A stretch of DNA of 38,468 nt from Actinomycetota bacterium (GTDB lineage Bacteria > Actinomycetota > Actinomycetes > Mycobacteriales > Mycobacteriaceae): the NCBI GenBank assembly GCA_018268465.1, contig JAFDWN010000034.1, positions 1-38,468 of the forward strand. Reading direction: 5' to 3'. Positions 791 to 13,412 of this stretch are shown here, one piece after another; position 1 is the first letter of the stretch, and the number at the start of each line of letters is the position of its first letter. The notes beneath the pieces are model-generated. The model was not told where the DNA came from. It saw only the letters and a program-made list of their open reading frames with translations, and did no database searches. A program made the position numbers and the translations under genes.

Positions 791-809
791 CATGCGCGGG
801 CGCGCATGT
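790..809. promoter_or_regulatory. SmtB-type operator: perfect 9-2-9 palindrome
   Basis: ACATGCGCG-GG-CGCGCATGT has perfect 9-bp arms. It can be read as the 12-2-12 layout typical of ArsR/SmtB operators. It starts at the edge of the smtB -10 box (TATCCT read on the minus strand, 785-790) and covers the -10/-35 spacer, so a bound repressor would block smtB-zur. It lies about 50 bp upstream of the glyS start, so glyS might also be affected. Confidence 0.6.
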
Positions 810-846
810 CAACGGCGGCGGTGGTGGAGGGCGGTGCGCCGGTCGC

Positions 847-852
847 TACGCT
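847..852 (+). promoter_or_regulatory. glyS -10 box, probable leaderless start
   Basis: TACGCT (TANNNT) ends 8 nt before the glyS GTG at 861. There is no purine-rich ribosome site, so transcription probably starts at or next to the GTG. This supports the 861 start over an upstream ATG at 792 that lies inside the divergent promoter region. Confidence 0.45.
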
Positions 853-860
853 GTTGCACC

Positions 861-2258
861 GTGGCGTCCATCATCGACACCGTTGCAAACCTGGCCAAGC
901 GCCGTGGGCTGGTCTTTCAGTCCGGCGAAATCTACGGCGGCACCAAGTCGGCGTGGGATTACGGCCCGTTGGGCGTTGAGCTCAAGGAGAACATCAAACG
1001 GCAGTGGTGGCGGTCGGTGGTCACCGGCCGCGACGACGTCGTCGGCCTGGACAGCGCGATCATCCTGCCGCGCGAAGTGTGGGTGGCCTCCGAGCACGTC
1101 AAGACGTTCCACGACCCGCTCGTCGAGTGCCTGAACTGCCACAAGCGGCATCGGCAGGACCACATGCAGGAGGCGTTTTTCGAAAAGGGCGGGGCGAAGA
1201 AGGGCTTCGCCAGTCCCGATTCGGTGCCCATGAGCGAGGTTTCCTGCCCGGACTGCGGCACCAAGGGCCGCTGGACCGAACCGCGCGATTTCAACATGAT
1301 GCTCAAGACCTATCTCGGCCCCATCGAGACCGAGGAAGGGCTGCACTATCTGCGGCCCGAAACCGCGCAGGGCATCTTCGTCAACTTCGCCAACGTCGTG
1401 ACCACCGCGCGTAAGAAGCCGCCGTTCGGTATCGGCCAGATCGGCAAGAGCTTCCGCAACGAGATCACCCCGGGCAACTTCATTTTCCGGACCCGTGAGT
1501 TCGAGCAGATGGAGATGGAGTTCTTCGTCGAGCCGGACACTGCGCCCGAGTGGCACCAGTACTGGATCGACACCCGGCTGCAGTGGTACGTCGACCTCGG
1601 CATCGACGCGGACAACCTGCGTCTCTACGAGCATCCCAAGGAGAAGCTGTCGCACTACTCCGCCCGCACCGTCGACATCGAGTACAAATTCGGCTTCCAG
1701 GGCAACCCCTGGGGCGAGCTGGAGGGTGTGGCCAACCGCACCAACTTCGACTTGTCCACTCACATAAAGCATTCCGGTGTCGACCTATCGTTCTACGACC
1801 AGGCTTCCGACACCCGGTACGTGCCGTACGTGATCGAGCCGGCAGCGGGTTTGACGCGGTCGTTGATGGCGTTCCTCGTCGACGCGTACTCCGAGGACGA
1901 GGCGCCCAACGCCAAGGGTGGGGTGGACAAGCGCACCGTGTTGCGGCTGGATCCGCGGCTGGCGCCGGTGAAGGCCGCGGTGCTGCCGTTGTCGCGGCAT
2001 GCCGACCTGTCCCCGAAGGCGCGCGATCTGGCCGCCGAACTGCGTAAGGCGTGGAACGTCGAATTCGACGACGCCGGCGCGATCGGCCGGCGCTACCGGC
2101 GCCAGGATGAGATCGGCACCCCGTACTGCATCACGGTCGACTTCGACTCGCTCGACGACCACGCGGTGACGGTGCGGGAACGCGACGCGATGACCCAGGA
2201 CCGGATCGCCATCGACGCGGTGCCGGACTATCTGGCGGTTCGCCTCAAGGGCTGCTGA
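861..2258 (+). CDS. glyS: Glycyl-tRNA synthetase (class II, alpha2 type)
   Basis: Class II aminoacyl-tRNA synthetase of 465 aa that charges tRNA-Gly in the cytoplasm. Recognisable blocks are the N-terminal [18 protein letters not shown], the class II motif 2 region [22 protein letters not shown], the motif 3 region with GLTRS, and the C-terminal anticodon-binding domain with [16 protein letters not shown]. The GTG at 861 gives [16 protein letters not shown], matching the start of mycobacterial GlyRS. An insertion holds two CxxC pairs, C90/C93 and C129/C132, which could form a zinc ribbon; as I recall the M. tuberculosis enzyme lacks these cysteines. The gene faces the zinc regulators smtB-zur, as in M. 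tuberculosis. Confidence 0.97.
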
Positions 2259-2290
2259 CCCCACCCAACCCCTCCTTGTCCCTCCTTGCG

Positions 2291-2348
2291 CGAGCGTGCG
2301 CGTCTGCGGGCGACACGCCGAGATTTTTCGGGAGTTTGCGCACGCTCG
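2291..2348 (+). repeat. 58-bp palindromic element, copy A
   Basis: A 58-bp element with perfect 10-bp terminal inverted repeats, CGAGCGTGCG and CGCACGCTCG. Its reverse complement recurs at 3327-3384 at exactly the same length, with about 45 of 58 positions identical by hand alignment; the divergence is concentrated in the middle. The two copies bracket the DUF559 gene in inverted orientation. The remainder of the gap before that gene (2349-2441) shows nothing I can name. Confidence 0.8.
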
Positions 2349-2441
2349 TCGCGGGGTCGGGCCATCCCCAACCGGCGATTCGTCCCCAAACCCGTGGGCA
2401 GCCGTTGTGCCCGACATGTCGACCGCCCGACGATCGCGCCC

Positions 2442-3329
2442 ATGGACGGCGAACTGCGCGGACTTCTCGACATACACGGCGGTGTCGCCACGACGGGACA
2501 ACTACTGGGATTGCTCAGCCGAAGCCGACTCGACATCATGATCCGCGACGGCGCTCTGGTGAAGGTCTGGCCGGGGGTGTACAGCGCGACCGAGCCCGAC
2601 AACACCCTGCGTCTGAAGGGCCTGGACCTGCGGGCGGGTGAGCCGGTCGCGATCTGTCTGGGCACCGCGGCCACCGTGTTCGGATTCGCCACCGAGGACG
2701 ACGCGGACCTGCACGTGCTCAACCCCGTCGGGCACCAGCTGCGGAATTCCGACGGCCTCGTCGTACACCGCCGCGACGGAGCCCCGTTGACCGACATCGA
2801 CGGCAGGCTCGCCACCACACCGGAGTGGACGGCGGTCGAAGTCGCCCGCTCACTGCGTCGGCCCCGTGCCCTGGCCACCCTCGACGCGGCGTTACGCAGC
2901 GGAACCTGCGACGGCCGTCAGCTCCGTGCGGCGGCCGCCCGGCAGGCGGGGCGGCGGGGCATCGTCGGGGTGCGCGAGTTGATCCCGATGGCGCAGCCGC
3001 TGTCCGAGTCGCCGATGGAGAGCGAGGCCCGGCTGGCGATGATCGACGCGGGGCTGCCGCACCCGGTACTGCAACACGAGATCATCGACCGTGACTGGCG
3101 GACCTGGCGTGTGGACTTCGCCTGGCCGGACAAGCACGTCGCGGTCGAGTACGACGGCTTCGACTGGCACAGTGATGCCGACGCGTTGCGCAGGGATCGG
3201 CAGAAGCGGGCCGCGCTGCAGGAGGTGGGCTGGTCGGTGGTGTCGATCGTCGCCGACGACGTCCGGCGTCGGTCCTGTGACATGGTTCGCCGGATCGAGG
3301 CCGCGTTCGAGCGGGTGCGGGCGGCGTGA
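2442..3329 (+). CDS. AbiEi-like winged-helix plus DUF559 nuclease-fold protein
   Basis: A 295-aa protein with two parts. The N-terminal third (about 1-90; TTGQLLGLLSRSRLDIMI, then WPGVYSAT) resembles the winged helix at the front of AbiEi-type type IV antitoxins. The C-terminal part (about 185-295) looks like DUF559, a PD-(D/E)xK fold related to Vsr: D225 in WRVDFAWP, E236-Y-D238 in VAVEYDGFDWH, then a basic RRDRQKR and GWSVVSI. The key nuclease residues are present, so it may cut DNA; no partner AbiEii toxin is next door. The start is the ATG that yields MDGELRGLL, because the upstream reading runs into a repeat element. Its TGA is part of the second copy of that element. Function unknown; a role acting on the flanking repeats is my inference. 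Confidence 0.85.
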   Translation: MDGELRGLLDIHGGVATTGQLLGLLSRSRLDIMIRDGALVKVWPGVYSATEPDNTLRLKGLDLRAGEPVAICLGTAATVFGFATEDDADLHVLNPVGHQLRNSDGLVVHRRDGAPLTDIDGRLATTPEWTAVEVARSLRRPRALATLDAALRSGTCDGRQLRAAAARQAGRRGIVGVRELIPMAQPLSESPMESEARLAMIDAGLPHPVLQHEIIDRDWRTWRVDFAWPDKHVAVEYDGFDWHSDADALRRDRQKRAALQEVGWSVVSIVADDVRRRSCDMVRRIEAAFERVRAA

Positions 3330-3384
3330 GCGTGCGTGAACTCTTCGGGAAACCCGGCGTGGCGCCCGCAGACACGCACGCTCG
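3327..3384 (-). repeat. 58-bp palindromic element, copy B (inverted)
   Basis: Inverted copy of the element at 2291-2348. Arms are GAGCGTGCG (3328-3336) and CGCACGCTC (3375-3383); the outermost base pair is mismatched. Its first three bases are the TGA stop of the DUF559 gene, and it ends 8 bp before the stop of the convergent TPM gene, so it could also act as a bidirectional terminator-like hairpin. Confidence 0.8.
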
Positions 3385-3392
3385 CCGGAGAG

Positions 3393-5375
3393 TCAGAAGC
3401 GGCCGCCGCCGCTGTAGCTGCGGCCCGACGAACGCGACGACCCGCCGTAGGAGGTCGGCCGGCCCGAACTGCGGCCACCGCCGAACCCTCCACCGAATCC
3501 GCCGCGCAGTACGTTGCCGATGATGATGCCGCCGATCATGGCCCCGACATCCGAACCTCCACCGCCGCCGCCGGGCCCGTAGTAGGACCGCTGCGCGGCC
3601 TGCACGTCATTGTTGGCCAGCGACTGTGCCTGCGCGGCCAGCATTGCCGCACCGTTGGCATGCGCGATGGCCTCGGTCGGATTGCTGGTGCGTTTGGCCT
3701 CGGCGGCTTCCAGATGCCGGCCAGCTTCGGCCAGCCGGGTGCGGGCCTCCGGGCCGATACTGCCGCGGCGGGTGTCGATGAAATCGGAGACCGCCTTGAC
3801 GCGCGACTGGGCGGTGAACATCGCCTGGTCCAGCGCGCGGGTCAACCGTTCGGCGGCCTCGCGTTGCTCGTGCACGCTGGCCAGCAACCGATCCAGGTCC
3901 GCGTCGGCGGTGGTCAGCCGGGTGAAAGTACCCAAGGGGTCCTGGGTTCCGTTGGCCCTGGCCTCCGCCACCGCCGAGACCGCCGCGTCGCGTGCGGAGG
4001 ACAGTTCGGCGGCCTGCGGGGTGTCCGGCGTCTGCAGCAGCGCACCCGCCTGGTCGATGCCGTTCTGAATGTCGGTGATCGCGGCGGGCAGCCCGGCGAC
4101 CGCGCGGTTGATATCCGCGGCGGCGCTGTCGACCGCGTCCAGCAGCGTGCGGGCCTGGCCGAGTCCGGATTCGGCCGCCCGCAGCGCGTCCACCAGGCCG
4201 GTCTGGCTGCCGACAGGGCGCGACACCAGGTTGCGCGCGCCGGTGATGTTGCGGTCGGCGAAGGCCAGCCGCTCCTTGGCGGTGTCCACATTGCCTGCCA
4301 CCGACGACAGCGCCGCCGCCGCGTACTCCCGGTGCAGTGCCTCCAGCGCACGGGTCGACGGTTCCAGCCGGGCGGTCAGGTCCACCATCTGCTGGGTCAT
4401 CGCGTCCAGGCGGGTGGGGGCGTTGATCACCAGGTCGCGCAGTTGCTCGAAAGCCTCACCCTGCGCTTCGAGTTCACGGTCGGCCTTGGCGGCGGCGACC
4501 ACCACCCGGGTCAACAGGTCACGCCGCTGCAGCGGGCTCTCCGGAATCGCGTCATCGAGTATCTGGCGCACGTTGAATGCTTGGGCCAGAGCGGTTTTCG
4601 CGTTCGCCACCGCGCGGGTGAACGGTTCGGTCTGCCGCGGCCCGAATTCCTCGACGGCCAGCGCCAGCTCGCCTTCGCTGGTGCGCACCGCGTTGTCGAC
4701 GTCGACCACGATCGATTTGGACAGTTCGTCGAGCGCCTCGATCGGCACCGAGGCCAGGGCGTTCGGATCGGTCGGGTCGACGCGTTTGGCCGCCACGAAC
4801 TCCGCCTCGCGGCGTTTGCGCCTGCGCCTGCGTGACCACATCCACAATGCGCCGACGAGAAGTACCAGTATCCCGAGCGTGATGAGCATCCCGACCCACG
4901 ACATCCCCGAACTCGGGGCCGCTGCGGAGTTCAGACCGTTGGCCGCGGCCACCGCCGCGCCGGCCCAGTCCTCTTGGCGCAGCGCCGGTTCGATGTCGTT
5001 GCGCTGTATATCGGCCGCCCGGGCCGACGCGTCGCCGCGCACCTCGAATGCGTACTCGCGGTCCTCGGTGGCCACGGCCAGCAGTGCGACGTTGTCGCCG
5101 AGTGCGCTGGCCCGCATGGTCGCCTGCGCCCAGCTGGTCCCGCTCTGTCCGGAGAAGCTGGTGACGTAGACGACCCACAGCTGGATCCTGCGGTCGTCGT
5201 AGAGCCGGTCGACGGCCGCGCGGACGTCGGCAGCGTCGGAACCCGACAGCACTCCGGCGTTGTCGGTGACCTGGCCGGACAGCCGGAACGGGGGCTCGGC
5301 CACGGCCGCCGGCGCCACCAGGACGCCGACGGTCAGGGCCGCGAACAGCAGGCCGAGCAAACGGGTGATGCGCAT
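3393..5375 (-). CDS. TPM-domain secreted/membrane protein (Rv2345-like)
   Basis: A 660-aa protein, the same length as I recall for M. tuberculosis Rv2345. It has a signal peptide ([20 protein letters not shown], cleaved near AVAEPP), a TPM domain (about 35-150, with the conserved [10 protein letters not shown] and LWVVYV), one membrane helix (about 160-185), a basic RRRRRKRR stop-transfer run, a long alpha-helical region likely to coil (about 200-580), and a Gly/Ser-rich tail ending SYSGGGRF. The TPM domain would face outside; these domains occur in proteins linked to envelope or photosystem maintenance, and the mycobacterial role is unknown. The ATG at 5375 is preceded by TAGATT with 7 nt spacing. 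A much longer reading upstream is the shadow of dgt on the other strand. Confidence 0.9.
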
Positions 5376-12698: not shown

Positions 12699-13412
12699 AT
12701 GACCGAACCGGACGGTTTGCCGCACGCGATCGACCATACGCATGCGAACGTGACGGGCGGCTGGTTGCGGGCCGCGACGTTCGGGGCGATGGACGGACTG
12801 GTCAGCAACACCGCGCTGATCGCCGGTGTGGCCGCCAGCGCCAGCGCGAGCACCGTGGTGCTCAGCGGTGTGGCCGGGCTGCTGGCAGGCGCGTTCTCGA
12901 TGGCCCTCGGCGAGTACACGTCGGTGACCACCGCCAACGAGCAGATCGATTCCGAGGTCCGTGTCGAGCGGCGTTCGTTCCGTAAGCACCCGCAGGCGGA
13001 ACGGGCCGAATTGGTGCAGACCTTGGTGGCGATGGGGATGACGGAGGACACCGCGCGCACGGCCAGCGAGGAGATCCACCGCGACGAGAGCCGGGCGATC
13101 ACCTTCCATCTCGTGCAGGAGCTCGGTGTGCACCCGGAGGAGAAGCCGTCGCCGTGGGTGGCGGCGGGGTCGTCGTTCGTGATGTTTGCGATCGGGGCGA
13201 TCATCCCGCTGATTCCCTACCTGCTGGGATACGACTCGCTGTGGGCGGGGCTGATCTGCGGCGGTATCGGGCTGTTCGTCGCGGGTGGTGTCGCGGCGCG
13301 GTTCACCCGCAAACCGGTGTGGCAGGCCAGTACGCGCCAGCTGGTCTTCGGGGCGATTGCCATCGCCGCCACCTATTTGGTGGGGTTGCTCATCGGCACC
13401 GCGGTGAGTTAG
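12699..13412 (+). CDS. VIT1/CCC1-family Fe2+/Mn2+ transporter
   Basis: A 237-aa membrane protein of the vacuolar iron transporter family. The family opening is clear: GGWLRAATFGAMDGLVSNTALIAGV, then GLLAGAFSMALGEYTSV in the second helix. A cytoplasmic, acidic metal-binding helical region (about 75-150; EEIHRDESRA) separates helices 1-2 from three C-terminal helices, about five in all. Such proteins export Fe2+ or Mn2+ from the cytosol by proton exchange in known members. The ATG at 12699 gives the conserved start; an upstream reading from 12639 overlaps the divergent gene's promoter. It converges on the MarR gene with 11 bp between. Confidence 0.9.
   Translation: MTEPDGLPHAIDHTHANVTGGWLRAATFGAMDGLVSNTALIAGVAASASASTVVLSGVAGLLAGAFSMALGEYTSVTTANEQIDSEVRVERRSFRKHPQAERAELVQTLVAMGMTEDTARTASEEIHRDESRAITFHLVQELGVHPEEKPSPWVAAGSSFVMFAIGAIIPLIPYLLGYDSLWAGLICGGIGLFVAGGVAARFTRKPVWQASTRQLVFGAIAIAATYLVGLLIGTAVS

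Follow-up and report, generated by a model that had tools for sequence, protein, structure and literature searches.

A predicted Vsr-fold nuclease gene and its palindromic elements in Mycobacterium and related families: a candidate counterpart of REP/RAYT systems

In REP/RAYT systems (REPtrons; TnpA-REP), a low-copy nuclease gene lies between inverted palindromes, cognate palindromes are scattered over the genome, gene and palindromes co-diversify, and palindrome copy number is linked to the gene (PMC2817692). In the TIRYTs, or TIRtrons, a nuclease gene is enclosed by inverted repeats of greater length, which make up small families (PMC3733652). Here we analyse a gene of comparable arrangement from an actinomycetote assigned to the Mycobacteriaceae (GCA_018268465.1), located in a window of 38,468 nucleotides, i.e. 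the whole stretch of DNA that was analysed (contig JAFDWN010000034.1, positions 1 to 38,468). It shares with REP/RAYT the inverted flanking palindromes, their scattered cognates, the co-diversification and the gene-linked copy number, and with TIRYTs a nuclease gene between inverted repeats forming small families. In contrast to both, whose enzymes are HUH tyrosine transposases (Y1, PF01797, in REP/RAYT), the protein encoded here is a predicted Vsr-fold enzyme. Its elements, mostly 55-57 bp in the genus, also lack the GT(A/G)G head of REP sequences, those of the window's genome having the ends GAGCGTGCG...CGCACGCTC. Since three features of REP/RAYT are found and two are missing (HUH enzyme, GTAG-type head), we regard the system as working like REP/RAYT and not as a member of it.

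Two further comparisons concern the protein. Its predicted catalytic fold is like that of the Vsr repair nuclease and of Vsr-fold homing endonucleases such as I-Bth0305I, from which it differs by the addition of an AbiEi-like region and by its link to dispersed palindromes. Unlike the homing endonucleases, it is intergenic at the window locus, with no host intron or intein there, and it occupies no fixed site, 70 cassettes falling into 26 flank signatures (some with one flank in common). AbiEi antitoxin proteins resemble the weakly AbiEi-like N-terminal region; in contrast to them, the protein carries a nuclease domain, and the neighbours of its gene in the window are glyS and a TPM-like gene. 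No link between DUF559 or MTES_1575 proteins and dispersed repeats was found in open-access titles and abstract openings, several DUF559-mentioning papers lying outside that scope. Because the enzyme is not a RAYT, the elements carry no REP head, and the titles and abstract openings searched show no such link, we consider the system new in kind; a reader giving architecture more weight than homology could place it within REP/RAYT as a further form.

The window locus

The features of the locus are collected in Table 1. The Pfam matches of the 295-residue protein, MTES_1575 (REase) at E 3e-8 and DUF559 at E 1e-3, fall slightly short of the curated cut-offs. PADLOC returned an AbiEi match over residues 25-171 (E 7e-8), and Pfam matched AbiEi_4 in 7/22 homologs. 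The four invariant residues, putatively catalytic, were conserved in all 22 aligned homologs, and the earlier note's observation of a nuclease-fold gene with intact acidic residues is confirmed. The best fold match is a homing endonuclease; Foldseek gave no match at E <= 0.001. No Pfam match to Y1_Tnp was obtained for the window protein or its homologs, which matched MTES_1575/DUF559 and, in some cases, AbiEi instead.

Table 1. Positions of features at the nuclease locus, numbered from the first nucleotide of the window
Feature	Position	Strand	Remarks
Presumed glycyl-tRNA synthetase gene (glyS)	792..2258	+	identity judged from sequence; outside the unit
Pyrimidine-rich outer flank of upstream element	2259..2291	+	
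Upstream element, type 1 (GAGCGTGCG...CGCACGCTC)	2292..2347	+	56 bp; TCTGC/GACACGCCG arm left
Nuclease gene	2442..3329	+	295 aa; start codon placed by comparison with homologs
N-terminal region, weakly AbiEi-like	2442..2996	+	residues about 1-185; residues 68-110 poorly predicted
C-terminal nuclease domain, predicted Vsr-fold, PD-(D/E)xK-type	3009..3323	+	residues 190-294; E193, D225, E236, H243 invariant
Downstream element, inverted	3328..3383	-	56 bp; overlaps TGA stop codon
Convergent gene, presumably a TPM-domain-like secreted protein	3393..5375	-	start approximate; outside the unit

The pair of inverted 58-bp elements reported around the gene corresponds to the longest inverted repeat of the window (2290-2347 / 3328-3385; 58 nt, 79% complementary, 980 nt apart). 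Its core unit is a 56-bp imperfect palindrome in which the left arm, TCTGC...GACACGCCG, is conserved and the middle is variable, and the second copy, as had been noted, extends over the stop codon of the gene, contributing the GA of its TGA. Folded as single-stranded DNA hairpins, the upstream and downstream elements reached z values of -3.0 and -3.7, respectively. Rfam gave no match within 2200-3450.

The genome (6.88 Mb, 72 contigs), of Mycobacterium type to judge by its named relatives, yielded 30 copies in a strict search against none for the reversed pattern, so that the element occurs there beyond chance; 29 measure exactly 56 bp, and the 9-nt ends are fixed among these copies because the search pattern sets them. 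Apart from the gene-bracketing pair, no two strict copies were closer than 10 kb. Two near-identical elements (L025:1850-1905 and 12820-12875) share a contig at a distance of 11 kb, and their right flanks are similar. In the 28 copies outside the window locus, the flank left of the element is pyrimidine at a fraction of 0.80. The dispersed copies of this genome were the closest to its own cassette (rank 1 of 47), if very narrowly.

Bracketing, element types and copy number

Homologs at E <= 1e-40 were present in 103 of the 148 genus genomes sampled, with 1-4 per positive genome; searches at E 1e-15 and 1e-8 found none on plasmids or phages. Most family members outside the window are bracketed, contrary to what would have refuted the earlier note: in 67 of the first 70 loci the upstream/downstream inverted repeat outscored all 11 null pairs, and 105 of 145 genus loci (some genes fetched twice) passed a strict test defined by elements of 54-58 bp with shared 9-nt ends, against 0/600 random placements. 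Closer (77/109) and more distant (28/36) homologs both passed, 21 of the 40 misses scored just outside (5-7), and a permissive test recognised at least one element beside 111/115 genus rows. Clean-ended bracketing elements (n=159) measured 56 bp in 119 cases, 57 in 26 and 55 in 12. The paralogs of the window's own genome (L017-L022), considered as further bracketed members, gave 0/6 by the strict test; L017 had scored 14.4, just over the top value of the 11 null pairs.

Bracketing copies taken from one locus resemble each other more than do those taken from different loci (0.74 vs 0.48 for type 1; 0.66 vs 0.47 for type 4), the downstream element being the best partner of its own upstream element in only 6/22 (type 1) and 6/19 (type 4) cases. 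At one locus, L166, both elements carry an identical extra insert. This likeness and the shared insert suggest homogenisation of the two copies.

Elements of the genus fall by their ends into five types: GAGCGTGCG, GAGCGCGCG, GAGCGCTCA, GAGCGACCG and GAGCAGACG. On a tree of 134 proteins, these five types and the group from outside the genus require 11 changes against 70 when shuffled, a clustering inflated by near-copies; the GAGCAGACG and GAGCGCTCA types each make up one side of a branch.

Copy number tracks the gene subfamily, a test proposed in the earlier note, and copies are far rarer in genomes lacking the cognate gene, contrary to the equal abundance that would have refuted that note. 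Strict type-1 copies averaged 13.4 in the 47 genomes with a type-1 gene and 1.7 in the 101 without (p 5e-17), and type-4 copies 12.6 in 79 genomes with a type-4 gene and 1.9 in 69 without (p 9e-16), phylogeny being uncorrected in both contrasts. The cross-comparisons were weaker (type 1 by type-4 gene, 6.9 vs 3.8; type 4 by type-1 gene, 11.8 vs 5.7). Part of the link is built in, because a gene takes its type from the element next to it, and two copies were therefore subtracted per gene. The type-1 contrast then still stood at 11.3 vs 1.7 (p 2e-12, phylogeny uncorrected), and that for type 4, counting fetched genes only, was weaker, at 10.7 in 29 genomes vs 6.4 in 119 (p 0.004), many of the 119 holding unfetched type-4 genes. 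Type-2 elements were present in 15/148 genomes, namely in 7/7 with a type-2 gene and 8/141 others, and after subtraction in 6/7 with the gene (p 2e-6). Orphan populations also exist: 13 genomes with at least five type-1 copies and nine with at least five type-4 copies have no recognised cognate gene. Five of these 13 type-1 genomes lack a homolog at E <= 1e-40; in others, the homologs are unfetched, unclassified or of the GAGCGCGCG type.

Beyond the genus, a survey of 150 genomes of the order gave copy numbers of up to 77, 71 and 54 for GATCATG-ended patterns and 0 for the reversed controls, some of the matches resembling coding sequence. A profile search found homologs in all 18 genomes to which it was applied, most of them rich in this pattern. 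As predicted, the one homolog of G055 (77 copies) lies between two GATCATG elements and one of those of G191 (54 copies) is bracketed likewise; one homolog each in G046 and G263 has the same position. In G233, G269 and G239 (71, 48 and 41 copies), none of the homologs listed was GATCATG-bracketed (0/6, 0/5 and 0/5), and one in each (L276, L303 and L263, respectively) lies between GATCAAG-type elements; the cognate gene of the GATCATG elements in these genomes may have been lost or may have escaped recognition. An element pair of G055, 862 bp apart (L242:1086-1142 and 2002-2058) and expected around the homolog, was rejected, as it encloses an unrelated gene, whose product by eye resembles a metallo-beta-lactamase-fold protein. 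At L245, L249, L246, L247 and L257, homologs of another family are accompanied by GGAGTTGTGG- or GCAGTT-type palindromes, either on one side or on both, the types differing between the two sides at L257.

Overall, 20/47 homologs from outside the genus were bracketed, against 86/2464 cross-family pairings, and 27/47 failed; the strict test used within the genus was passed by 5/19 loci outside it. The nuclease/palindrome pairing is thus found both in Mycobacterium and in other families of its order. The earlier note's reading is supported, though the system is not only mycobacterial.

Variation at a shared site and the proposed mechanism

Comparison of the glyS-TPM site in the window with that of 29 relatives revealed occupied, solo, doublet and empty states; a comparison of empty sites had been proposed in the earlier note. 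The cassette is held by 12/30 loci, six per orientation. One type-4 element follows glyS in 7/30 (the TPM gene being absent from the locus in two), two loci (L167 and L187) have two inverted type-1 elements without the gene, as REPIN-like doublets, and L163 retains a remnant. Element-free intervals, from overlap to 29 nt, occur in 5/30, and L168, L176 and L189 have other neighbours or inserts. Among 28 copies of the window's genome, no convincing target-site duplication or clear insertion signature was found: 16/28 share two abutting bases, an effect of GC in the extended palindrome, and four share three or four. At L006, L007, L011 and L036 the left flank (the pyrimidine tract and sometimes the element's first bases) seems to be duplicated in tandem, which may be a vestige of how the element inserts.

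The bracketing, the lineage-matched types, the copy number that follows the gene, the presence and absence at a shared site and the conserved putative catalytic residues form the observed basis on which a cognate partnership between the nuclease gene and the 56-bp palindromes is very likely. That the two constitute a cognate unit of REPtron-like organisation, whose Vsr-fold, homing-endonuclease-like enzyme spreads the elements, is in our judgement the probable explanation. The AbiEi-like N-terminus and the nuclease domain would recognise the lineage-specific palindrome, as duplex or extruded hairpin, and the nuclease would nick or cut at or near it; host repair would then copy or deposit the element elsewhere, often between genes, and would also keep the two bracketing copies alike. 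Solo elements would spread in this way, the gene remaining at one or a few copies. We infer the binding, cutting and copying by the nuclease, and with them the earlier note's proposal that it moves the elements itself, a reading weakened by the orphan genomes, the lack of GATCATG bracketing among the listed homologs of G233, G269 and G239, and the G055 pair around an unrelated gene.

Alternatively, the palindromes might be binding sites of the AbiEi-like domain, serving autoregulation or a regulon, with the nuclease kept for e.g. phage defence and the sites dispersing in some other way. The AbiEi-like N-terminus (PADLOC; AbiEi_4) and the usual presence of an element upstream of the gene are in keeping with such a role, which we nevertheless consider unlikely: the downstream element begins within the stop codon in 58/95 cases, where no promoter is expected, many copies of the window's genome lie between genes, often convergent ones (rough ORF scan), and both presence and orientation of the cassette vary at one site. 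Doubtful to a similar degree is a selfish homing-type nuclease that cuts element-free or partner sites, the whole cassette being copied by repair and the solo elements representing remnants after gene loss. The best fold match, the filled, doublet and empty alleles at one site, and the likeness of the L167 and L187 doublets to gene-deleted cassettes would all fit; however, strict copies per genome reach 49 (type 1) or 83 (type 4) against 1-4 genes at E <= 1e-40, which is many for cassette remnants.

We give little credence to another transposase, of RAYT or IS200-IS605 type, spreading the elements with the nuclease gene as a passenger between two of them. A Y1_Tnp gene was indeed detected in 7/18 element-rich genomes, that of the window included, and orphan element populations exist, but none was detected in 11/18, including genomes with 49, 49, 77 and 71 copies, which disfavours RAYT as the mover, and a mere passenger should show no such match with the type and copy number of the elements. 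Around the IS200/IS605-type Y1 transposase gene of the window's genome (L286; G000:C4:80703), the 3.3-kb locus contains only a single 9-mer of the element ends. It is highly improbable that the cassette is an ordinary insertion sequence whose ends are 56-bp terminal inverted repeats and whose MITEs are the solo copies, although a gene between inverted repeats at many sites suggests it, since each end is itself palindromic and found alone, genes number 1-4 per genome at E <= 1e-40, and target duplication was not seen among the copies of the window's genome.

A nuclease-based counterpart of REP/RAYT

The preferred reading of a cognate, nuclease-spread unit can be extended to a REPtron-like class across a bacterial order, of RAYT-independent origin, in which a Vsr-fold homing-type nuclease with an AbiEi-like region would cut its own roughly 56-bp palindrome and disperse it through repair, with one type per protein lineage; we hold the chances for and against this broader claim to be about even. 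At the level of sequence, a gene and a repeat that occur and change together across related species suggest a nuclease-based counterpart of REP/RAYT. To our knowledge, the dedicated enzymes of REP-type palindromes known so far are HUH tyrosine transposases. A second, unrelated enzyme class in a REP-like architecture would, if confirmed, mean that populations of REP-type repeats arose on more than one occasion, and would suggest what one branch of the DUF559/MTES_1575 proteins does. The lineage-matched pairs of enzyme and substrate would make the dissemination of REP elements directly testable.
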